DNA of 45,466 nt, from positions 1 through 45,466 of the forward strand of contig JAFOHE010000159.1 in assembly GCA_017421975.1 (NCBI GenBank). The letters run 5' to 3'. Positions 21,980-38,413 of the stretch are shown here, one piece after another. The notes under the pieces were generated by a model. That model made no database searches. It was not told the origin of the DNA and saw only the letters and a program-made list of their open reading frames with translations. This stretch comes from Pseudomonadota bacterium (lineage in GTDB: Bacteria; Myxococcota_A; Bradymonadia; UBA4248). The first letter of the stretch is position 1; every line of letters starts with the position of its first letter. Position numbers and translations under genes: made by a program.

Positions 21980-24064
21980 TTATTTAAAATGGGTGGCTTT
22001 GCGGCGTCTGAAAAGCCCCAGCGCGGTAAGACCGGCCAGAAGCCAGCCGGCAAATGAACCCGTGGATGGCGTGTGCGTGGAAGCACTACAGGCGCTTTCG
22101 GAGACGTGGTTGTTGGAAGTGCAGTAGGCACAGCCCGAGCAGTCTGGATCGTTGCAGTCAACGAGGCCGTCGCCGTCATTGTCTGTTTCGTCTGAACATG
22201 CAATGAGCTGTTGCGTGAAGTAGTCGTCCTGGCAATGGGCGGCTTGGATGCAGCTCGGATCGGCACAGTCTGCAAATCCGTTGTTGTCATCATCCTTATT
22301 GTTGTCGCAGATTTCGCTGCCCGTGTTTTCCGGAACATCAGGCTGGGAACCGGCATTGCCGCCGGTTGCCTGACCATCATGATTGCCATCCGAAGCGCCA
22401 CCATCATGAGTGTCGTTACCGGTGGCGGCACAGCGTTCTTCCGCTTTGCATGCGTCGTCGTCGCAGTCGATAAGATTGTTGCCGTCGTTGTCTATGTTGT
22501 CGTCACAGACTTCGTTGGGTTTGAGATTCGGGAGAATGCAGTTGTCGTAAAGGATGGTGCATGTCGAAGAACAGGTTACGTTTCCGCCGGTGTAGAGCGG
22601 ATTCCAGTCGGTGCAGAGCGACCAGCCGTTGCGGAAGTCGTCCTGATCACAGTTCTCGCTGAGATTGGTCACGCCGTCGCCACAATATTCGACGTGGCAA
22701 TCGGAATAATCGATATTGCATGTCGATGAGCAGGAAACATTGCCCGTATGGTACTTCGCGTTCCACTGTTCGCATGTCGTTTTGTTGTCCTTGAAAGTGT
22801 CACCGTCGCATTTTTCGTTGAGATTGGTGATGCCGTCGCCGCAATACTCGATTTTGCAGGCGGCATAATCGATTTTGCAGTCGGCAGTGCAGGTGACGTT
22901 GCCAGAGGTGTATTTTGCATCCCAGGCCGAGCATGTCGTCTTGTTATCTTTGAAAAGTGAGGCATCGCAGATTTCGTCATAGCTTAACACGCCATCACCG
23001 CAGACGGCGGGCGCGCAGTCGGAGTCGGAGGCATCGGCATATCCGTCGCCGTCGTCATCAATGCCATTGTCGCAGATCTCAACATATTGCGTGGCTACCT
23101 CGGGAGCATAGCCGATGATCCAGTCGTAAAAATCCTGAACGGCCGTGGATATGCCATACTCGGCACAAATGCCGTCACCGTAGCTCGTAACGCCTGACAC
23201 GTATTCTGTGCCGCCCATGGTCAAAAATGCCGGTCCGCCGGAATCCCCCTGGCATGGGCCGCCATCGACCTGGCTGTAATAAAGGCTGCCGTAGGGCATG
23301 AGGATATATTCCGTCTCGTCTTCACAGTCATAGTCAGGACTCGGATGGCAGCCGCTGACATAGACGGTGCCCGCTTTGCAGCCTTTCGTGCTGTCCGATT
23401 TGTTGGCCGGCCCGCAGTATTTGGTGACGGAACCTGTGAACTGGAGCTTGGTGCCCATTACGCCCTTTTCGTTGTATCCAAAACCGGAAAAGGTCATGTT
23501 TTGGGCAAGGTCGGCGGAGGAAATTTTGAGCCACTTGGGGTGCGGAAGAATCGGTTTTGCGACGCTCGATGGAATGGGATTTTTGAGTTTGATCAGGGCG
23601 ATATCCGCATCGATGGTGCTGTAATTGTAATCGGAACTCCACCAGTTCGTGCTGAGCTGACGATAGGCAAAGCTGCTGTGGTAGTAAATCTCGCTCGTGC
23701 CTGAAATGGCATAGAGTTTCTTGGACACTGCTGTTTCGTTATTGCCGACGCCGATCTTGATATACTTGTTGGTCGTCGCAGCGCTGACGTTACCGTAATC
23801 ATCGTGGTCGGTAACACAGTGGGCCGCTGTGAGAACCCATTGTGGATGAATGAGCGTTCCCGTGCAAAAGACATAGTCATTATTGGTGTTGTAAAGACCG
23901 ACGACGGCTTTGTGGGCCGTCAATGTGTCGGATGTACCGTTGACCATGGGGTGTTGGGAAACGCGAAGCACTGCCGGAAGAGAGGCGTCTTTTTCGGAAC
24001 ATGCGCTTGTGCCCAGGGCACATACCAAAACAAACGTGAATAAAACTGGTTTCGTGTGATTCAT
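21980..24064 (-). CDS. Secreted trypsin-like protease with Cys-rich and Asp-rich repeats
   Basis: A 694-residue S1 (trypsin-like) protease. The start at ATG 24064 has AGGA nearby; a signal peptide ends near ALGTSAC, with Cys a possible lipidation site. The domain begins at MVNGTSDT (the IVGG position) and has the triad segments LTAAHC, DADIALIKL and CQGDSGGPAF. About residue 330 onward come CDNGIDDDGDG-type metal-binding motifs (four copies) and three DUF4215-like repeats of about 50 residues (CGDGxTNLNEKCD...). The end is a hydrophobic helix followed by RRRK, like C-terminal sorting tails of Myxococcota. It is probably exported and exposed at the surface. A related protease lies on the other side of gyrB. 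Confidence 0.9.
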   Translation of the reverse strand: MNHTKPVLFTFVLVCALGTSACSEKDASLPAVLRVSQHPMVNGTSDTLTAHKAVVGLYNTNNDYVFCTGTLIHPQWVLTAAHCVTDHDDYGNVSAATTNKYIKIGVGNNETAVSKKLYAISGTSEIYYHSSFAYRQLSTNWWSSDYNYSTIDADIALIKLKNPIPSSVAKPILPHPKWLKISSADLAQNMTFSGFGYNEKGVMGTKLQFTGSVTKYCGPANKSDSTKGCKAGTVYVSGCHPSPDYDCEDETEYILMPYGSLYYSQVDGGPCQGDSGGPAFLTMGGTEYVSGVTSYGDGICAEYGISTAVQDFYDWIIGYAPEVATQYVEICDNGIDDDGDGYADASDSDCAPAVCGDGVLSYDEICDASLFKDNKTTCSAWDAKYTSGNVTCTADCKIDYAACKIEYCGDGITNLNEKCDGDTFKDNKTTCEQWNAKYHTGNVSCSSTCNIDYSDCHVEYCGDGVTNLSENCDQDDFRNGWSLCTDWNPLYTGGNVTCSSTCTILYDNCILPNLKPNEVCDDNIDNDGNNLIDCDDDACKAEERCAATGNDTHDGGASDGNHDGQATGGNAGSQPDVPENTGSEICDNNKDDDNNGFADCADPSCIQAAHCQDDYFTQQLIACSDETDNDGDGLVDCNDPDCSGCAYCTSNNHVSESACSASTHTPSTGSFAGWLLAGLTALGLFRRRKATHFK
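22540..23000. repeat. Three approx. 150-bp coding repeats
   Basis: Encodes three tandem DUF4215-like modules of the protease, each starting CGDG(V/I)(L/T) and carrying the TSGNVTCTADC / TGNVSCSSTC / TGGNVTCSSTC pattern. Boundaries are approximate. Confidence 0.65.
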
Positions 24065-26903
<2,839 letters not shown>

Positions 26904-26928
26904 TTCATAACCTTGAGATGAATGGTTG

Positions 26929-26950
26929 GGACGTTTCGACAAACGTCCCT
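26929..26950. repeat. Hairpin GGGACGTTT/AAACGTCCC
   Basis: Perfect 9-bp stem with a four-base loop in the gap between gyrB and the second protease. It shares the GGGACGTT core found in elements A and C. GGAACGTCC follows at 26961-26969. It may terminate or process the gyrB transcript; no T-run follows. Confidence 0.6.
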
Positions 26951-26981
26951 AAATACTGTGGAACGTCCTAGGAGAGGAACT

Positions 26982-28355
26982 ATGGCCCGTCGATTTATTC
27001 TTGTCCTCATCTGTTCTTGTTTCGGATTTTGTGCATGCACGGAAACGGCTGCACCACCAAGTCGTGAGGGTAGGGATTGGGCGACGGCGCAGTATGCCAT
27101 GGTCAATGGTACACCCGATACATCGGAGGCACATCGTGGCGTCGTGGGCTTGTACGCTGTCAAATCCAATTCGACGTGCGCCTATAAGGATGCCCTTTAT
27201 TGTACGGGGACCCTCGTTCACCCCAGTTATGTCGTGGCTGCAGCGCATTGCGTGGCGAAGGAAATCATCTATGGCCAGCGTTATGCAGACAGTACATGCA
27301 ATAAATATACTAAAATAAGCATTGGTGCGACGGAAGCGGAAGCGGCTAAGAATCTTTATGATGCCGAATCCATCGTCTGGCACAGCGATTACAGAGATTA
27401 CGAGAATAAGGCTGAATCGACTTATTCACTTCTCAATGATATTGCTATTATCAAACTTGCTTCTCCTATACCCGAATCGGTTGCCAGGCCGATTCCCGTC
27501 CTGCCGCCATGGCTTGGGCTCTCCGCGTCGAGTGCCGGTGAGACGCTCGATATCGTTGGCTTCGGTTATGATGAACGCGGCAGCTTCGGCACAAAAGCGC
27601 GCTTCTCAACGCCACTCCTGAAGTATTGCGGTCCAAAGGAAGCCAATCGTGAGGTCGGATGCCTGCTCGATGAACGCGTCTTTGTCAACGGTTGTCATCC
27701 TTATCCCACTTACTGCCTCGAAGATGGGTACCAAAAGTACTACGAGACTGTACTCATGCCCACAGGAAGCATTTATTACACGCAGGATGAAGGCGGCCCC
27801 TGTCAGGGCGATTCAGGTGGCCCCGCTTTCGTTACGCTCAATGGAAAGGAATATCTTGCCGGCGTGACGAGCTACGGGGATATGGCGTGCGTGGCTTACG
27901 GCGTGTCAACGGCCGTTCAGGATCACTTTGATTGGCTCGTCAGCCATGCGCCGCAAATCGTCGATATGTACCCCGAGCTCTGTGATAACGGGGTGGACGA
28001 AGACGGCGACACAAAGATTGATTGTGACGATGATACATGTAAAGGCGCTGTGGCCTGTAAAAATAACGACGAAGCTGATGGGGATGATGAAAATGACGCA
28101 TCCTCTGCTGTGCATGGCGGTTCGCAAACGGGCAAGGCTGGAAGATGCAATAATAACATAGATGACAATGGCAATGGCCTCGTCGATTGTGATGACCCGG
28201 AGTGCGCCGATTACGCTGTGTGCAAGAAAAAAGATAAGTCGTCCGATTCTTCGTGTGATGCAACCCTCAAAAATCATGCGCACAATGGGGTAGCCGTATG
28301 CGGATGCTTCGGTCTGATGCTGCTCTTAGGCTTGTTCAGACGAAAACGTGTGTGA
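26982..28355 (+). CDS. Secreted trypsin-like protease (paralogue)
   Basis: A 457-residue S1 protease related to the one at 21980-24064. ATG 26982 is preceded by GGAGAGG; the longer frame to 26922 runs through an intergenic hairpin. The signal peptide region has a Cys-rich end (CSCFGFCAC) that may be a lipobox. Mature start MVNGTPDT; triad segments VAAAHC, NDIAIIKL and CQGDSGGPAF. Two CDNGVDEDGD/CNNNIDDNGNG metal-binding motifs follow, then a Cys-rich hydrophobic tail with RRKRV. It lacks the three Cys-rich DUF4215-like modules of the other copy. The pair flanks gyrB with opposite orientations, suggesting an old duplication. Confidence 0.9.
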   Translation: MARRFILVLICSCFGFCACTETAAPPSREGRDWATAQYAMVNGTPDTSEAHRGVVGLYAVKSNSTCAYKDALYCTGTLVHPSYVVAAAHCVAKEIIYGQRYADSTCNKYTKISIGATEAEAAKNLYDAESIVWHSDYRDYENKAESTYSLLNDIAIIKLASPIPESVARPIPVLPPWLGLSASSAGETLDIVGFGYDERGSFGTKARFSTPLLKYCGPKEANREVGCLLDERVFVNGCHPYPTYCLEDGYQKYYETVLMPTGSIYYTQDEGGPCQGDSGGPAFVTLNGKEYLAGVTSYGDMACVAYGVSTAVQDHFDWLVSHAPQIVDMYPELCDNGVDEDGDTKIDCDDDTCKGAVACKNNDEADGDDENDASSAVHGGSQTGKAGRCNNNIDDNGNGLVDCDDPECADYAVCKKKDKSSDSSCDATLKNHAHNGVAVCGCFGLMLLLGLFRRKRV

Positions 28356-31207: not shown

Positions 31208-31566
31208 ATCTACCTCCATTGGCTCGTGGAAACAAACTTATCCAACTTTATTTACGCTTGCAAATTCTAAGCCACGTCGCAGTCTAACTTATTCTGATAA
31301 ACGAAAAAAGTTGTTAATCCTTGCATGAGGCTTAGTTTAGATGACTTAGAACGATGCAATGATTCCCTCGCTTCGCCTTTTGTATGGCATGACACATTGA
31401 CAAATCTTCACTTCCTCTGGGGTATTCTGTCCCCAGATTTGTTTCCATTGTACGCGCTTTGACGTTAAAAAAAATAGCTCTTTGACGTATATTTTTGACG
31501 TATAGTATAGTAACGACCTCGATTGTTTGATTATTCCAGCCGTCCACGGCTTAAAGGTTGCGTGAC
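31208..31566. other. Divergent intergenic region
   Basis: About 360 bases between the 30311 gene and the RNase gene. It contains a promoter candidate at 31482-31511 preceded by repeated TTGACGT units. No gene is seen. Confidence 0.5.
31482..31511 (+). promoter_or_regulatory. Candidate sigma-70 promoter for the RNase gene
   Basis: TTGACG (31482-31487) and TATAGT (31506-31511) with an 18-base spacer, about 55 bases before ATG 31567. A second TTGACGTATA copy lies at 31495-31504 and a TTTGACGTTA at 31459-31468, so the promoter overlaps a direct repeat. Confidence 0.45.
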
Positions 31567-33666
31567 ATGACTTCTGCGAACACTCTTGTTGATTCGGCTG
31601 TCGTAGAATTTGCCGATAAGGGAAAATTTCAGCTCGGACTCGTTCTGGCCGTCGATCCCAAAACTTCCAAAGTTCGACTCATCAACCAGCTCAGGCGGGA
31701 AATCGTCCTGCCTCCACGGCAGATCCTCCATGTCATCTCAAATCATGCCGGTATTTCGTCAGACCTGCCGTTGTCCAATATCTCGGATTTGCTGACTTCG
31801 ATTGAGATTCGAGCGCAAAATCTCATTAAAGCCTCTGATATCGAGGAACTTTGGGCACTCAATGAAGGCGAAGACGCCGTTTCTCTCGATATGCTCGTCG
31901 GGTTGCTTTACTCCGATCCCACGCCTTCACAGCGTCTCGCTATGATACGTGCTTTGCGGGCTGACCGCATCTACTTCAAAGAGACGGGGACGGAGGTCTA
32001 TCAGCTCCGCTCGCCCGAAAATGTTGCGGAAATTAAGCGACAGCTCGCCATTCAGGCCGAAAAAGAACACTTCAGAAAAACTTTTGTCGATCAGGCGTGT
32101 GCGTTTCTGGTGATCGCGGATGACGAAGAACGCGCACACGCCGTCGAAATGCGCGATCATGCATGCGATGCCGCATGGAATAATATCGTGGCTTATGCCC
32201 TCTTCGGAAGCGAGGCGAAAGAACATCTCGAAGCCGATACGCTCATCGCGATGATCCAAAAACAGATTAACCGCGGGTTCCCAGGAACGGCGCACCTACG
32301 TGCACGCGCTTTCTTGAGGGAATCAGGCTATTGGGATGAAGACACAAACGTCGCTTTGCTTCGCCATGATGTGCCTGTCAGATTCTCGGATGAAATTGAA
32401 AAGCGCGCGTTCGAACGCTATCGGGCACCTCTGGAGGCACAGGATCGCCTCGATCTGACGCATCTTGAAGTCTTTTCCATTGACGATGCTTCGACGCTCG
32501 ATATCGACGATGCGATATCGATAGAGTCGCTCGATAACGGAAACATGCGGCTCGGCATTCATATCGCCGCTCCGGCTGCCGCCATTCCCTTCGATTCGCT
32601 GCTCGAAAAAGAGGCGCGTGAACGGGGTACGTCGCTTTACTTGCCAGACAGCCGTATCCCCATGCTCCCCCTCATCCTCAGTGAAAATGCGCTAAGCCTT
32701 ATGCCGAATGAACGCCGCGCTGCCATCACCTTCTTTTTTCTCATGGACAAGCAGTACAATGTCCTCGATCGCTCCATCGTGCGAAGCCTTGTCTGCTCAA
32801 AGCACAGGCTGACCTATCGTGCCGCAGAGCAGATGATCGAATTCGGAAATGACGGATTGAGCGATATGTTGCGCATGGTGTTTGAAATAACGGAAGTGTC
32901 TGAAAGCACGCGACATGCCGCCGGCGCCATCGATGTTGATTTGCCCGAAAATAAGGTCGTTTATCGACGTGACGAAGGCAAATACAGCCTTGAACCGATC
33001 GATAACGGCATGATGAGCCGCCAGCTCGTTTCAGAATGTATGATTCAGGCCAATGCTTTCGCTGCTGATTATTGCGTCGAACATGCCATTCCTGCACTCT
33101 TCAGGATTCAGCCTGCGCCATCCAATCTCCCAACAAGCGAAGAACTCGATGCCATGCCGAATGACATGATGCGTGCCCTGAGCCTGCGCCGCTGCATGTT
33201 GCCGGCCGTCTCATCCATGACACCCGGACGTCACGCCGGACTCGGACTTGAGCGCTATATTCAGGCTACGAGCCCGCTTAGGCGTTACGTCGATTTGCTC
33301 GCGCATTACCAGTTTGAAGCCTTTTTGACGACTGGCAGGCCGCTTTTCGATGATGCGCAGTTTGCAACGGCACTATCGAACGTCGAAGGGGCACTGTCTG
33401 CGGCGCGTGCGGCTTCTTCGGAAGCAAATCAATACGCCGTACTCGCTTACTTTCGACAGGAACGCGGGCGCCTCTTTGATGCCATCATCGTGCAGTACAA
33501 TCCCGAAAGGCCGGAGCATCCACATGTCATGCTCATTGACACGCAGACCCGTGCTACGCTTACGCTTCGAAAGCGTCTCCCCGTCGGGACGATTATCAAA
33601 GTCCTTGTCGATCATGCCAATCCTGATGACGGGACGTTGATCGTGAAGTTCGTGTCGGAAGCGTAG
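31567..33666 (+). CDS. RNB-domain exoribonuclease (RNase II/R family)
   Basis: A 699-residue 3'-to-5' exoribonuclease. The catalytic RNB domain begins around residue 300; IDDASTLDIDDAIS (305-318) holds the metal-binding aspartates, and later segments LHIAAPAA, YLPDSRIPMLP and HAGLGLERYIQATSPLRRY are typical. The N-terminal region is divergent, with no clear CSD pair; an S1 domain is suggested near the C terminus (RPEHPHVMLIDTQTRATLTLRKRLPVG) but is weak. ATG 31567 is preferred to TTG 31558: AAAGG at 31551-31555 fits ATG best. Length is close to RNase II/R-like proteins of cyanobacteria and plastids. It might be rnb or rnr; I do not assign either. It degrades mRNA or structured RNA. Confidence 0.88.
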   Translation: MTSANTLVDSAVVEFADKGKFQLGLVLAVDPKTSKVRLINQLRREIVLPPRQILHVISNHAGISSDLPLSNISDLLTSIEIRAQNLIKASDIEELWALNEGEDAVSLDMLVGLLYSDPTPSQRLAMIRALRADRIYFKETGTEVYQLRSPENVAEIKRQLAIQAEKEHFRKTFVDQACAFLVIADDEERAHAVEMRDHACDAAWNNIVAYALFGSEAKEHLEADTLIAMIQKQINRGFPGTAHLRARAFLRESGYWDEDTNVALLRHDVPVRFSDEIEKRAFERYRAPLEAQDRLDLTHLEVFSIDDASTLDIDDAISIESLDNGNMRLGIHIAAPAAAIPFDSLLEKEARERGTSLYLPDSRIPMLPLILSENALSLMPNERRAAITFFFLMDKQYNVLDRSIVRSLVCSKHRLTYRAAEQMIEFGNDGLSDMLRMVFEITEVSESTRHAAGAIDVDLPENKVVYRRDEGKYSLEPIDNGMMSRQLVSECMIQANAFAADYCVEHAIPALFRIQPAPSNLPTSEELDAMPNDMMRALSLRRCMLPAVSSMTPGRHAGLGLERYIQATSPLRRYVDLLAHYQFEAFLTTGRPLFDDAQFATALSNVEGALSAARAASSEANQYAVLAYFRQERGRLFDAIIVQYNPERPEHPHVMLIDTQTRATLTLRKRLPVGTIIKVLVDHANPDDGTLIVKFVSEA

Positions 33667-33757: not shown

Positions 33758-33837
33758 TTGGAAACGTGGGGGCTGAAGACACAAATAAGCGCACAGCACG
33801 TCGCATGGCATGTCACGCACAATCGTGATAAGAGATG

Positions 33838-33976
33838 TTCGGGGGCGTTGCGGGGGCTGGCCCCCGCACAAGGGGGTAGCGGCGTATCTTTTTTCAGAAA
33901 AAGCGTTGTAAACGCGTTTTTCTGAAAAAAGATAGCCGCGTAGGGGGCGGTAAGACGCGTCGCACCGCCCCCTCAC
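33838..33976. repeat. Composite REP-like element D2
   Basis: GGGGGCGTTGCGGGGG / CCCCCGC hairpin, AGGGGGTAG, then long hairpin 33878-33940 (GCGGC, extra G, TAT, CTTTTTTCAGAAAAAGCG..., complement, ATA, GCCGC), CGTAGGGGGCGG / CCGCCCCC hairpin. Flanks match elements B and C, the core is different. Confidence 0.85.
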
Positions 33977-34006
33977 ACAAAAAATGATTATTTGGCGGAA
34001 ATCGAG

Positions 34007-35287
34007 ATGAGATATTGGATTGCAGGTTTATGGATCGGGGTTCTGATGAGCATGGCGGCGTGTGATGCGGCCAAAACGACGCCTCTGGACGGCAAGGCAA
34101 ATCAGCTTGCCGTGGGCGTATCGCCGGCGGACATGAAGGAAAGCACAGATGCGACTGTGAATGATGCCGTGGCGGGGCAGGCGCAGGGTAAGGCCGTCGA
34201 TCCGGTTGAAAAGGCTGTCGCTGAAATAGATGCGCTTCTGAATCAGAAAAAATTTCGTGAGGCTTATGCGGCCGTTGTGGCGGCGGAAACGGCGTTCGGC
34301 TCTTGTGCGGCGCTCAGTGCGGCGTTTGACCGCGTGTATGACGCGGATCCCGATTACCAGGCTCGCCCCCGCGAGGTCACCAATGATGAGGTCACGGCTG
34401 TCAAAAAGTTGGGCGGCGGAAGCTCGCTCGTGTACAGATTGATCAAGGATAAAAAAACTTTCGCGGCTTTTAAGCCAAAGCAGATGCGCAAACAGTCGAA
34501 TGACCGCTCCGAAATTGCGGCTTACAGGCTCTGTCCGCTCATGCGGTGCCGCTTTGACATTCCCGTCAATCATCCCGTCTGGTTTACGTATCGCCGTTTC
34601 AGCGGCCTCTATGCAAGAATTCCATCCAATCCTCCAGACGAACTTCGCGAACTTGATCTCGTCAAGGTCGATGGCGTGGATCGCGTCGTCGGAACGCAGA
34701 AAGCATGGGTGGCGGAATATGCTTTTTTCCCAATTGAGATGGAAAATTGGTGGAAACCTTTGTTCGAGGCGCCAAAAGAGTATTTGCTGAAGGCAAAGGC
34801 AGCTGAGATGCTCGATGCACAAGAGCTACAAAAACATCATAATGGCACAAAAATTGCTAATGATCTTGTAACGCATTTTGGGACGCTTACGCAGTATGCG
34901 CTTGCATTACAACTTTCGAATTTGCTTGTCTTTGATTTTTTGGTGAACAATTGGGATCGGTACAGTCAAAAAGAAGAATTCTGGGGTGTGAATTGTCAGT
35001 TTTCACACGGTCGTTTTATGTCCATCGATAACGGTGCGTCCTTTCCACAGACCCCCAATCCCAGACCGGAGCGTCACTTGCATGGCATACGGCGGTTTTC
35101 GCGTCTGACTTACGAAGCCATCGGGGCACTTGAGCACGACAGAACGCTCGAACGCCTTTATCCTGATGCGACTGAGCTGGAAAAGAAACGCTTTGAAACG
35201 TTTTGGAAGCAGAGGGAACGCTATCTTGCGTATGTGGAAGGACTAATATCGGAATATGGAGAGTCGGAAACCTTGTTTTTCGATTGA
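34007..35287 (+). CDS. Lipoprotein with FAM20C/HipA-like kinase fold (candidate)
   Basis: A 426-residue predicted lipoprotein: the signal peptide ends in MAAC (Cys19), with a disordered linker to about 60. Residues 135-420 carry an atypical kinase pattern: a small glycine-rich GGGSSLVYRL (137-146), Lys156 or Lys158 (FKPK) as ATP ligand, Glu169 (SEIAAYRL), then FDFLVNNWDRYS (309-320; Asp317 as catalytic candidate) and SIDNGASF (339-346; Asp341 as metal ligand). This N-x-DR ... DNG order is the hallmark of the FAM20C/secreted-kinase and HipA-like group. It would phosphorylate an extracytoplasmic target; substrate unknown. ATG 34007 gives the lipoprotein signal; no strong ribosome site is visible. 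It lies before the prepilin peptidase gene. Confidence 0.7.
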   Translation: MRYWIAGLWIGVLMSMAACDAAKTTPLDGKANQLAVGVSPADMKESTDATVNDAVAGQAQGKAVDPVEKAVAEIDALLNQKKFREAYAAVVAAETAFGSCAALSAAFDRVYDADPDYQARPREVTNDEVTAVKKLGGGSSLVYRLIKDKKTFAAFKPKQMRKQSNDRSEIAAYRLCPLMRCRFDIPVNHPVWFTYRRFSGLYARIPSNPPDELRELDLVKVDGVDRVVGTQKAWVAEYAFFPIEMENWWKPLFEAPKEYLLKAKAAEMLDAQELQKHHNGTKIANDLVTHFGTLTQYALALQLSNLLVFDFLVNNWDRYSQKEEFWGVNCQFSHGRFMSIDNGASFPQTPNPRPERHLHGIRRFSRLTYEAIGALEHDRTLERLYPDATELEKKRFETFWKQRERYLAYVEGLISEYGESETLFFD

Positions 35288-35301: not shown

Positions 35302-35345
35302 TAAGGATTGTTTGATGCGCAAGCTAAGGATTGTTTGATGCGCAA
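35302..35345. repeat. Tandem duplication of 21 bp
   Basis: TAAGGATTGTTTGATGCGCAA occurs at 35302-35322 and again at 35325-35345, separated by GC. It covers the possible ribosome site region of the prepilin peptidase gene. Confidence 0.85.
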
Positions 35346-36353
35346 ATGGTATTGGTTGATATGATGGAACAGGAATGGGTTGCGAGTCTGACTGGGTGGG
35401 CATATTTTTTTTGCATTGCGTTTGCAGCATGTGTGGGTTCGTTTTCCAACGTTGTGATATGGCGTGTTCCACGTCATGAGTCGATTGTGTCGCCGCCGAG
35501 TGCCTGCCCAAAATGTGGAAATAGGATAAAGTGGTACGACAATGTGCCCATTTTGTCGTGGCTGTGTTTACGCGGAAAATGTCGTCACTGTCATGCGCCA
35601 ATTTCGCCACGTTACATTATTGTCGAGAGCATTGCGGCATGTTTTGGCGGATTGTTGTGTCATCAGGTCGTTGTGCCGCTTCTGCCTTACCTTCTTGAAC
35701 CCAATGTCGCATGGCAGATGATCGTCTTATTTGTGTCGTTGACGCTTTTTGCCATCGGCTGCCTGGCACTGGCACTGATCGATTACGATACGACGGAACT
35801 TCCGCCGGAAATCACGTTACCGATGGCTGGTTTGGGGCTTCTGACAGCATGGCTCATTCCTGAAACAGGGGTCTTTGCGCAGCTTCTCGGAAACATTGAC
35901 TGGATGGATGCTCTTTTAGGTGGGCTGATCGGCGGCGGCATTATCGTTTCGATTATCGGCATTTATTATCTCCTCACGAAAAGAATTGGCATGGGAGGGG
36001 GCGATATTTGGATGATGGCTATGATCGGGGCTTTCCTCGGCTGGGAAGCCTTGCCTTTCGTCTTTCTTGCCTCAAGCCTGCAAGGGGTCATTATCGCCGT
36101 GATCGGTATGGCGATTGGGGCAAAACAAAAAAAAGGCGAAGGGCAGGGGCTTTTCCGAAATGAAGTGTCACGCGAGATGAATGGGGAGACAAATGAGAAT
36201 GGTGAAAATGAGGAAACTGCGGGGAAACTCGCGATCCCTTATGGACCATTTATTGCGCTCGCTGGCGTGGAATACTTGTTCCTCGCGGATATCGTATTGC
36301 CCTGGATGTCAGGAAACGCTCTTTCACCTTGGGGATTGGTGGTGACATTTTAA
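35346..36353 (+). CDS. Prepilin peptidase (type IV prepilin leader peptidase/methylase)
   Basis: A 335-residue polytopic inner-membrane aspartyl protease of the PilD/GspO family that would cleave and N-methylate type IV pilin-like leader sequences. The cytoplasmic zinc site is present (CPKC and CRHC, Cys54/57 and 79/82). The catalytic aspartates are in ALIDYDTTELP (Asp146 or 148) and GMGGGD (Asp220). About eight membrane helices are expected. An acidic, Glu/Asn-rich insert (about 278-305) lies before the last helix. The start is uncertain: ATG 35346 or ATG 35361; a duplicated AAGGA sequence precedes both. It is probably followed by an independent kinase gene; no other pilus genes are in the window. 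Confidence 0.9.
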   Translation: MVLVDMMEQEWVASLTGWAYFFCIAFAACVGSFSNVVIWRVPRHESIVSPPSACPKCGNRIKWYDNVPILSWLCLRGKCRHCHAPISPRYIIVESIAACFGGLLCHQVVVPLLPYLLEPNVAWQMIVLFVSLTLFAIGCLALALIDYDTTELPPEITLPMAGLGLLTAWLIPETGVFAQLLGNIDWMDALLGGLIGGGIIVSIIGIYYLLTKRIGMGGGDIWMMAMIGAFLGWEALPFVFLASSLQGVIIAVIGMAIGAKQKKGEGQGLFRNEVSREMNGETNENGENEETAGKLAIPYGPFIALAGVEYLFLADIVLPWMSGNALSPWGLVVTF

Positions 36354-36481: not shown

Positions 36482-38413
36482 ATGGAAAGTGGAGTGCAGG
36501 AACAAATAGGAAATACGACGCAGGCTGGGATGGCCAGTATCCATAAGTCGCTCGTAGATAAGCGGGATTCGGCCCAATTTGATATTGGGGAAGTGATCGC
36601 TGATCGTTATAAAATCGTGAAGATCTTGGGCGTGGGTGGCTTTGGTATCGTCTATGAATGTGAGGATTCGCAGCAAAACAAACATATCGCTCTTAAAACG
36701 CTGAAGCATAACATTCCTGATTACACGCGTGCGGCCAAACGCTTTGAACGGGAAATCGCGCTCTCTCAGGAGCTGCAGTCGGAGCATACGGTCAAAGTCT
36801 TTGATGCCGGTGTCGCAGAGAATGACACGCTTTATTTTGCCATGGAACTGCTGACGGGGGAAACGCTCGAAGCATTCATCGAACGGCGTGAGCGTTTCAC
36901 TTTCCTCGAAACTAAAAAACTTGTGCTTCAAATTTTAGACAGCTTGCGCGAAGCCCATCAAAAAGGCGTTGTTCATCGTGACTTGAAACCGTCGAATATT
37001 TCGCTTGAACCCAGAGTAGAGACTTCGGGGGATGATACATATACAAGCCACGACTTTCATGTGCGCGTCCTTGATTTCGGTATCGCCAAAATTATTGATA
37101 CGGAGACTGGTGAGGAAAATGCTGAAAAGTTGACAAAAACTGGGGCGTGGATCGGCTCTCCGGCTTATATGTGCCCGGAACTCCTCAAGGGGGGAGAAGT
37201 CACGCCAGCAGCGGATATTTATGCCGTCGGCCTCATCATGTATGAGATGCTTGTCGCCCATCAGGCCATTTATGGTTCCAGTGCCATCGAGATTGCTGTG
37301 CAGCAGATGAGTGCTGATCCTATCCCCATTGATGATTGGATCATGGAATCCTCTTTTGGGTCGATTATCACAAGGTGTGTCGAAAAAGACCGAGATATGC
37401 GCTATCAGAATGCCAGTTCTCTGTATGATTCGATTGCAGCGCTCGACGATGATGTCCTCAAAAAAGAATATACATCAGCAAAACTTAAGTCTTTTGCTTC
37501 GACAAAGCGACAGCAGACGACGGGAAATGGCAGCATTAACTCTGTTCCGACAACATCCATGACGGCTGTTTCCACAGTCATTTCTGAAGATGAGTTCAGG
37601 CAGCGACGTCTTCAGCAGGGATTGATCTTCGGCATTGCACTTTGCGTTACGCTTATTGTCACAGTGGTCATTGTCAAGATGTATGTCGATAAACGCATCA
37701 ATCTTGAAAATGTGATTACTGGTTTGGCGGAGGAAGAGCCGAACCTTAAGCAGTACCAGAAGGATATCCTTCAAAGTGCTTCTTTGGGGGCACTCATGGG
37801 GGCGCTTGATCCGATGCGCGTGCGTGTGACGATCGTGGCATCACCGGCTGAAACGAAGATTTATCGTGCTTCAGACAATGTTGAGATTGGGGCATCGGGA
37901 AGTGCGTTTGATATCATACGAAGCTTAAGTCAGTGGAATCTTGTTCTGAAAGCGGATGGTTATGAAGATTACAATTTGCCTGTCACGCCGATGCGATTTG
38001 AAACACTGACGGTCACATTAAATCGAAAATTACCGCCCCCGCCGCCGTGGATGAAGGATGGTGGACATGGTGGCCCACCACCTTTGCCGCCCGGGCCGCC
38101 TCAGGAAGTGGATCCCAATGGCCAGAAAATTGATTCGGATTCAGCCTCGCAAACAGATCAGACGGATAAAATGCCTGACGATACGGCATCAGGCAAAACG
38201 ACGACATCTGATAAGTCTACAGGCAAAACAACGACGTCAGGTAAATCTACAGGCAAAACGACGACATCTGGTAAGTCTACAGGCAAAACGACGACGTCTG
38301 GTAAGTCTACAGGCAAAACGACGACATCTGGTAAGTCTACAGGCAAAACGACGACATCTGGGAAGTCATCGACGGGTAAGACAAATTCGAAGAATGTCTA
38401 TTCTGTGGATTAA
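36482..38413 (+). CDS. Ser/Thr protein kinase with PEGA-like domain and tandem C-terminal repeats
   Basis: A 643-residue Hanks-type kinase. ATG 36482 has AGGA upstream. The kinase domain spans about 42-320: LGVGGFG loop (49-55), Lys72, Glu91, HRDLKPSN (Asp167), DFG (198-200), activation SPAYMCPE. One membrane segment lies at about 379-401. An extracytoplasmic PEGA-like domain (VRVTIVASPAETKIYR ... LVLKADGYEDYNLPV, about 450-520) follows, then a Pro-rich segment and five to six copies of SGKSTGKTTT. All catalytic residues are present. It forms a rightward cluster with a response regulator and a WD40-like protein, which may be part of the same signalling route. Confidence 0.93.
   Translation: MESGVQEQIGNTTQAGMASIHKSLVDKRDSAQFDIGEVIADRYKIVKILGVGGFGIVYECEDSQQNKHIALKTLKHNIPDYTRAAKRFEREIALSQELQSEHTVKVFDAGVAENDTLYFAMELLTGETLEAFIERRERFTFLETKKLVLQILDSLREAHQKGVVHRDLKPSNISLEPRVETSGDDTYTSHDFHVRVLDFGIAKIIDTETGEENAEKLTKTGAWIGSPAYMCPELLKGGEVTPAADIYAVGLIMYEMLVAHQAIYGSSAIEIAVQQMSADPIPIDDWIMESSFGSIITRCVEKDRDMRYQNASSLYDSIAALDDDVLKKEYTSAKLKSFASTKRQQTTGNGSINSVPTTSMTAVSTVISEDEFRQRRLQQGLIFGIALCVTLIVTVVIVKMYVDKRINLENVITGLAEEEPNLKQYQKDILQSASLGALMGALDPMRVRVTIVASPAETKIYRASDNVEIGASGSAFDIIRSLSQWNLVLKADGYEDYNLPVTPMRFETLTVTLNRKLPPPPPWMKDGGHGGPPPLPPGPPQEVDPNGQKIDSDSASQTDQTDKMPDDTASGKTTTSDKSTGKTTTSGKSTGKTTTSGKSTGKTTTSGKSTGKTTTSGKSTGKTTTSGKSSTGKTNSKNVYSVD
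38191..38370. repeat. Six 30-bp tandem repeats
   Basis: Units start at 38191, 38221, 38251, 38281, 38311 and 38341, each AGGCAAAACGACGACATCTG plus ten bases, with few substitutions. They encode GKTTTSGKST. Number of copies may differ between strains, always in frame. Confidence 0.9.

Follow-up and report, generated by a model that had tools for sequence, protein, structure and literature searches.

A likely FAM20-related kinase lipoprotein of Myxococcota and its paralogues

HipA and HipT are cytoplasmic toxins, and PI4KII and the PI3-PI4 kinases are cytosolic lipid kinases. The FAM20 family (PF06702) comprises the Golgi casein kinase FAM20C, the xylosylkinase FAM20B and the pseudokinase FAM20A. 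Published accounts follow it across animal lineages, sponge and mammals included, or call it Metazoa-specific (PMC5865150, PMC7948968, PMC9758233), and it has four conserved disulfides (PMC5865150). Among bacteria, the CotH spore-coat kinases have been described as Fam20C-similar and act on coat proteins (PMC12189002). No paper on a bacterial FAM20 was found in a search of open-access text, whose scope did not include the Gradowski 2020 review of bacterial kinase-like families. Here we describe a myxococcal lipoprotein that is probably a lipid-anchored extracytoplasmic kinase of protein-kinase-like fold, its catalytic domain being a distant bacterial relative of animal FAM20. The similarity to FAM20 was discoverable before, since the public Fam20C model of Pfam already accepts some members; what is new here is the family as such, together with its export, the structure of its paralogues and its partners.

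The gene lies in the window, i.e., the whole stretch of 45,466 nt that was analyzed, and starts with the ATG at 34007, an in-frame TTG being also present at 33992 (Table 1). Its N-terminus, MRYWIAGLWIGVLMSMAAC, is a signal peptide of the lipoprotein type ending at Cys19, with the lipobox at residues 16–19 called by eye, which bears out the lipid anchor predicted in the initial annotation. The AlphaFold model (pLDDT 87.6, pTM 0.84) places a two-lobed domain at residues ~121–426, where the pLDDT is about 97 and mostly 91–99. Apart from Cys19, the lipidation site, the protein has cysteines at positions 100, 176, 181 and 330, and the pair C176/C181 probably forms a disulfide. Long GC-rich and T/A-rich inverted repeats occupy window positions 33834–33990, between the RNase and kinase genes; the T/A-rich palindrome is single-copy in this genome and thus not a repeat family. 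A perfect 23-bp tandem duplication (35302–35345) lies between the kinase and prepilin peptidase genes and overlaps the listed start of the latter.

Table 1. Coordinates of the predicted kinase gene, its sequence features and neighboring genes. Positions are those of the window unless a locus (L) is named.
Feature	Position	Strand	Remarks
RNase II/R-type exoribonuclease	31558..33666	+	conserved upstream neighbor of group A
FAM20-like extracytoplasmic kinase lipoprotein gene, group A paralogue (predicted)	34007..35287	+	426 aa ORF
Lipoprotein signal peptide, residues 1–19, lipobox MAAC with Cys19	34007..34063	+	sequence; equivalents in relatives
Low-complexity linker, residues 20–64	34064..34198	+	model pLDDT <50 up to residue 57
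TPR-like stalk of three helices, residues about 65–113	34199..34345	+	AlphaFold model; TPR matches in some relatives
Glycine-rich loop GGGS, residues 136–139, beta1/beta2	34412..34423	+	GGG invariant in 25 near relatives; model
K156, beta3 lysine of FKP motif	34472..34474	+	K 50/56, R 6/56; strand 150–157
E169, alphaC glutamate in SEIAAYRL	34511..34513	+	kept 53/56; helix 166–178
C176-x4-C181, near-family cysteine pair	34532..34549	+	32/56 each, same rows
Catalytic segment D310-x4-N315-W-D317-R318	34934..34960	+	D310, N315, D317, R318 invariant 56/56
D341-N342, metal-binding DNG (DFG-equivalent) after beta8	35027..35032	+	D341 invariant 56/56
Prepilin peptidase (A24), next gene, same strand	35331..36353	+	adjoins group A in 7/9 genomes of order
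Propeller-like lipoprotein beside group B kinase	L052 6024–7187; L055 164–1423; L056 5607–6764		
Group C operon loci	L035 3973–6735; L036 8992–11754; five others		
Small HATPase_c ORF	L059 1531–2235; L071 8889–9695; about 11 further loci		

Four motifs, read in the initial annotation as those of FAM20C-type and HipA-like kinases, are found in the order given there, at F155-K158, S168-L175, F309-S320 and S339-F346. The single sequence alone is ambiguous; the catalytic motifs are not a chance resemblance, since their residues are invariant or nearly so in 56 relatives (Table 1). W234 is also invariant in the 56-sequence alignment. Of the two lysines proposed for the active site, K156 is the conserved one, K158 showing no conservation among relatives. 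In comparisons of family profiles with PDB sequences, the catalytic segment aligns with FDFLMGNMDRH of FAM20C and, with the 56-member profile, the DNG motif at D341 aligns with LDNGRGFG. By alignment and spacing, D310, seven residues before the catalytic Asp, and R318 match FAM20C D451 and R459, which are reported Raine-syndrome positions (PMC7948968). Active-site placement was taken from the predicted secondary structure, in which N315-D317-R318 directly follow alphaE (296–313) and D341 directly follows beta8 (336–338); in the model, the glycine loop, K156, E169, the catalytic loop and D341 are thereby predicted to take the canonical kinase layout.

Kinship with FAM20 emerged from profiles and models. 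Searched singly, the window protein gave Act-Frag_cataly (0.15) and Fam20C (0.22) as its best Pfam matches, both below cut-off, with 11.6 bits against Fam20C where the curated cut-off is 26.8; it had no match in the PDB, in NCBIfam or to the HipA Pfam models (HipA_C, HipA_2). A profile of 25 near relatives ranked FAM20C first among PDB sequences (3e-6), and the 56-member profile A2 matched FAM20C at 3.6e-16, zebrafish Fam20C at 5e-14, FAM20A at 9e-13, hydra Fam20 at 4e-8 and also FAM20B, while its match to worm Fam20 (5e-13) was collinear over profile positions 20–333, nearly the entire domain. Beyond FAM20, A2 matched nothing in the PDB below 0.3. A second profile, centered on distant members, matched FAM20C at 1.8e-18 over positions 10–285 of 289, with no HipA chain at E<=0.1. 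One myxococcal lipoprotein (L085) reaches FAM20C as a single sequence (1.8e-18) and exceeds the Pfam Fam20C cut-off (3.3e-18, 66.6 bits); at the sequence level it bridges the gap between the window family and FAM20.

The fold comparison agreed, and the different fold that the initial annotation had named as its refutation did not turn up. FAM20 chains were the best 17 PDB matches of the model of the window protein (E 5e-9 to 6e-6, probability 1.00), with a modest TM of 0.38–0.50 for the full length, and the best 28 matches of the model of a distant member (L067, pLDDT 93), with TM up to 0.71. We consider the window protein FAM20-like rather than HipA-like because of these fold ranks and because the profile matches FAM20A, FAM20B and FAM20C and not HipA. 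It is FAM20-like and not a member of FAM20, since it scores below the Pfam cut-off and has none of the four FAM20 disulfides. The two share the kinase-like fold, the collinear Lys, Glu, catalytic Asp and DNG Asp, the DFL-x-x-N-x-DR segment with its salt-bridge Asp and a location outside the cytosol, predicted in our case; they differ in that the window protein is a bacterial lipoprotein with a TPR-like stalk and about 15% identity. CotH was not matched in Pfam or PDB searches of the present family, and it has been described as having no metal motif of the DFG type (PMC12189002), where the present family has an invariant Asp.

Export appears to be a property of nearly the whole family, as predicted by a simple hydrophobicity scan rather than a trained predictor. 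Where the N-terminus is intact, the kinase domain is in almost all loci preceded by a lipobox, a Sec-type signal or one hydrophobic helix, so that its predicted location is consistently extracytoplasmic, in agreement with the initial annotation. In type C and class-level members, the helix is itself preceded by an N-terminal region of cytoplasmic appearance, with a zinc-ribbon in several. The residue after the lipidated Cys differs among relatives, and judged by sequence an anchored periplasmic protein would fit as well as surface exposure.

Homologues were found in all nine genomes of the order, with two to four copies each. In the tree within the order, groups A and B have full support and group C moderate support (86/85), and since each group holds a sister-family member, the duplications predate the order. 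A GTDB-based contig scan with the alignment, a pattern scan whose matches were confirmed by tblastn, yielded 58 loci, with titles including Myxococcota, Deltaproteobacteria, Bradymonadales and 'Proteobacteria'; the same scan with the single window protein found nothing. At 1e-5, the domain was detected in 81 of 284 sampled Myxococcota genomes (29%), with several paralogues per genome, a frequency at odds with the initial annotation's remark that secreted kinases are rare in bacteria. The Pfam Fam20C model matched 27 of the 284 (22 over cut-off) and none of 14 control genomes. Searches of viral contigs gave no match, and those of plasmids one match at chance level (E 0.7).

Each paralogue group has its own neighbors (Table 1). 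The group B gene and the gene of a propeller lipoprotein, BamB/PQQ- or WD40-like, are divergently oriented. This lipoprotein occurs in the six B-containing genomes G001, G002, G004, G006, G007 and G008; G003 and G005 have neither it nor group B, and in G000 the contig stops at the B gene. In seven loci, genes for a lipoprotein (~420 aa) and another exported protein (~500 aa) come after that of the group C kinase, forming a conserved operon; a Pfam search with this pair from L036 gave no match. Of the nine genomes of the order, eight have the group C lipoprotein; the ninth, G000, has neither this lipoprotein nor group C. Since groups A, B and C each lie beside envelope genes, every group probably has an envelope machinery of its own as target or working partner. 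The neighbors' products are at most candidate substrates, their modification having been suggested as possible in the initial annotation. Many distant members have a small histidine-kinase-like ORF, mostly ~30 nt downstream, with HATPase_c and in L071 also a weak HisKA, which points to a connection with a two-component system.

Several further observations concern this locus and its relatives. In two loci (L033 7176–9260 and L041 6882–9122), a single exported protein combines the kinase domain with an FGE-sulfatase (formylglycine-generating-enzyme-like) domain, recognized by a Pfam match in L033 and by sequence likeness in L041. Two genes downstream of the FAM20-like kinase, the window encodes a Ser/Thr kinase whose C-terminus, beyond a transmembrane helix, consists of TTTSGKSTGK repeats encoded by ~6 copies of a 30-bp tandem repeat (38190–38367). 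These Thr/Ser/Lys repeats were considered as a substrate of the FAM20-like kinase; this was unsupported, orthologues and the group A gene being on different contigs in relatives. Elsewhere in the window, two trypsin-like secreted proteases flank gyrB (21980–24103, minus strand, and 26922–28355, plus strand), both ending in a hydrophobic stretch and a basic tail, like the myxobacterial C-terminal sorting signal.

The initial annotation had left the choice between FAM20C-like and HipA-like kinases undecided, and only its FAM20 half stood up to the searches. An exported branch of the bacterial HipA/HipT group would belong to the same superfamily, with FKP and related motifs; HipT (6e-3) follows PI3K (8e-4) among the next fold matches of the window model, and HipA_2 Pfam matches occur in 15 of the 56 relatives (best 4e-6). 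Fam20C is matched by more of them and more strongly (39/56, best 6e-10), all top fold ranks of both models belong to FAM20, the family profile matches none of the HipA chains of the PDB at E<=1, and the family is predicted to be exported, whereas HipA is cytoplasmic; we regard an exported HipA-like kinase as highly improbable. The lipid kinases have the same kinase-like fold and fall below FAM20 throughout, with weak PI3-PI4 kinase Pfam matches in 9 of the 56 relatives; PI4KII is the next fold match of the distant member L067 (1e-6). This speaks for the idea that the family phosphorylates glycans or lipids outside the cytoplasm, in the manner of FAM20B or PI4K, rather than proteins. Envelope glycans and lipids would be abundant acceptors, and among the FAM20 activities of animals that of FAM20B, a xylose kinase, is regarded as ancestral (PMC5865150, PMC7948968). 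The present data do not tell glycan from protein acceptors, and we see this alternative as possible, if rather doubtful.

Whether every member is itself a phosphotransferase is a related question. Some may be pseudokinases, since the alphaC Glu is lost in three group B proteins and K156 is replaced by R in six distant members. The former (L023, L024 and L025, the same genes as L050, L052 and L055) combine E169G with G343D, turning DNG into DND, by two changes on the tree. They could be pseudokinases or have a migrated carboxylate; the coupling also gives a small independent hint of contact between E169 and the DNG loop, two events being few and reversals possible. Together with the several paralogues in each genome and the precedent of FAM20A activating FAM20C (PMC7948968), such members would suit a pseudokinase or a non-phosphotransfer enzyme (a scaffold, or AMPylase-like) that activates another exported kinase. 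The window protein, however, keeps the glycine loop, K156, E169, N315, D317, R318, D341 and N342, as does group A throughout, and for this protein such a role seems unlikely.

For a FAM20-like phosphotransferase, the following course of action can be proposed. After export and lipidation, the kinase domain would face the periplasm or the outside. The glycine loop and the K156-E169 pair would hold a nucleoside triphosphate, with Mg or Mn bound by D341 of the DNG motif and probably by an Asn of the catalytic segment. D317 in NWDR would then orient a hydroxyl of the envelope protein or glycan that accepts the phosphate. ATP is generally considered scarce in extracytoplasmic compartments, which counts against an extracytoplasmic phosphotransferase, and the phosphate donor is the chief difficulty of this mechanism. 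The acceptor may be a protein or a glycan, given that phosphorylation of glycans is regarded as the original activity of FAM20 in animals (PMC5865150).

On a wider scale, we tentatively suggest that extracytoplasmic phosphorylation by FAM20-type kinases with dedicated envelope partners extends across the phylum Myxococcota and that animal FAM20 has a shared or acquired bacterial origin, in which case non-cytosolic phosphorylation would predate animals. With widespread exported FAM20-like kinases and their conserved envelope partners, bacterial phosphorylation outside the cytoplasm would become open to direct test. Such kinases would also pose the question of the source of ATP in the periplasm, and would serve as an outgroup in tracing how the secretory-pathway kinases of animals arose.
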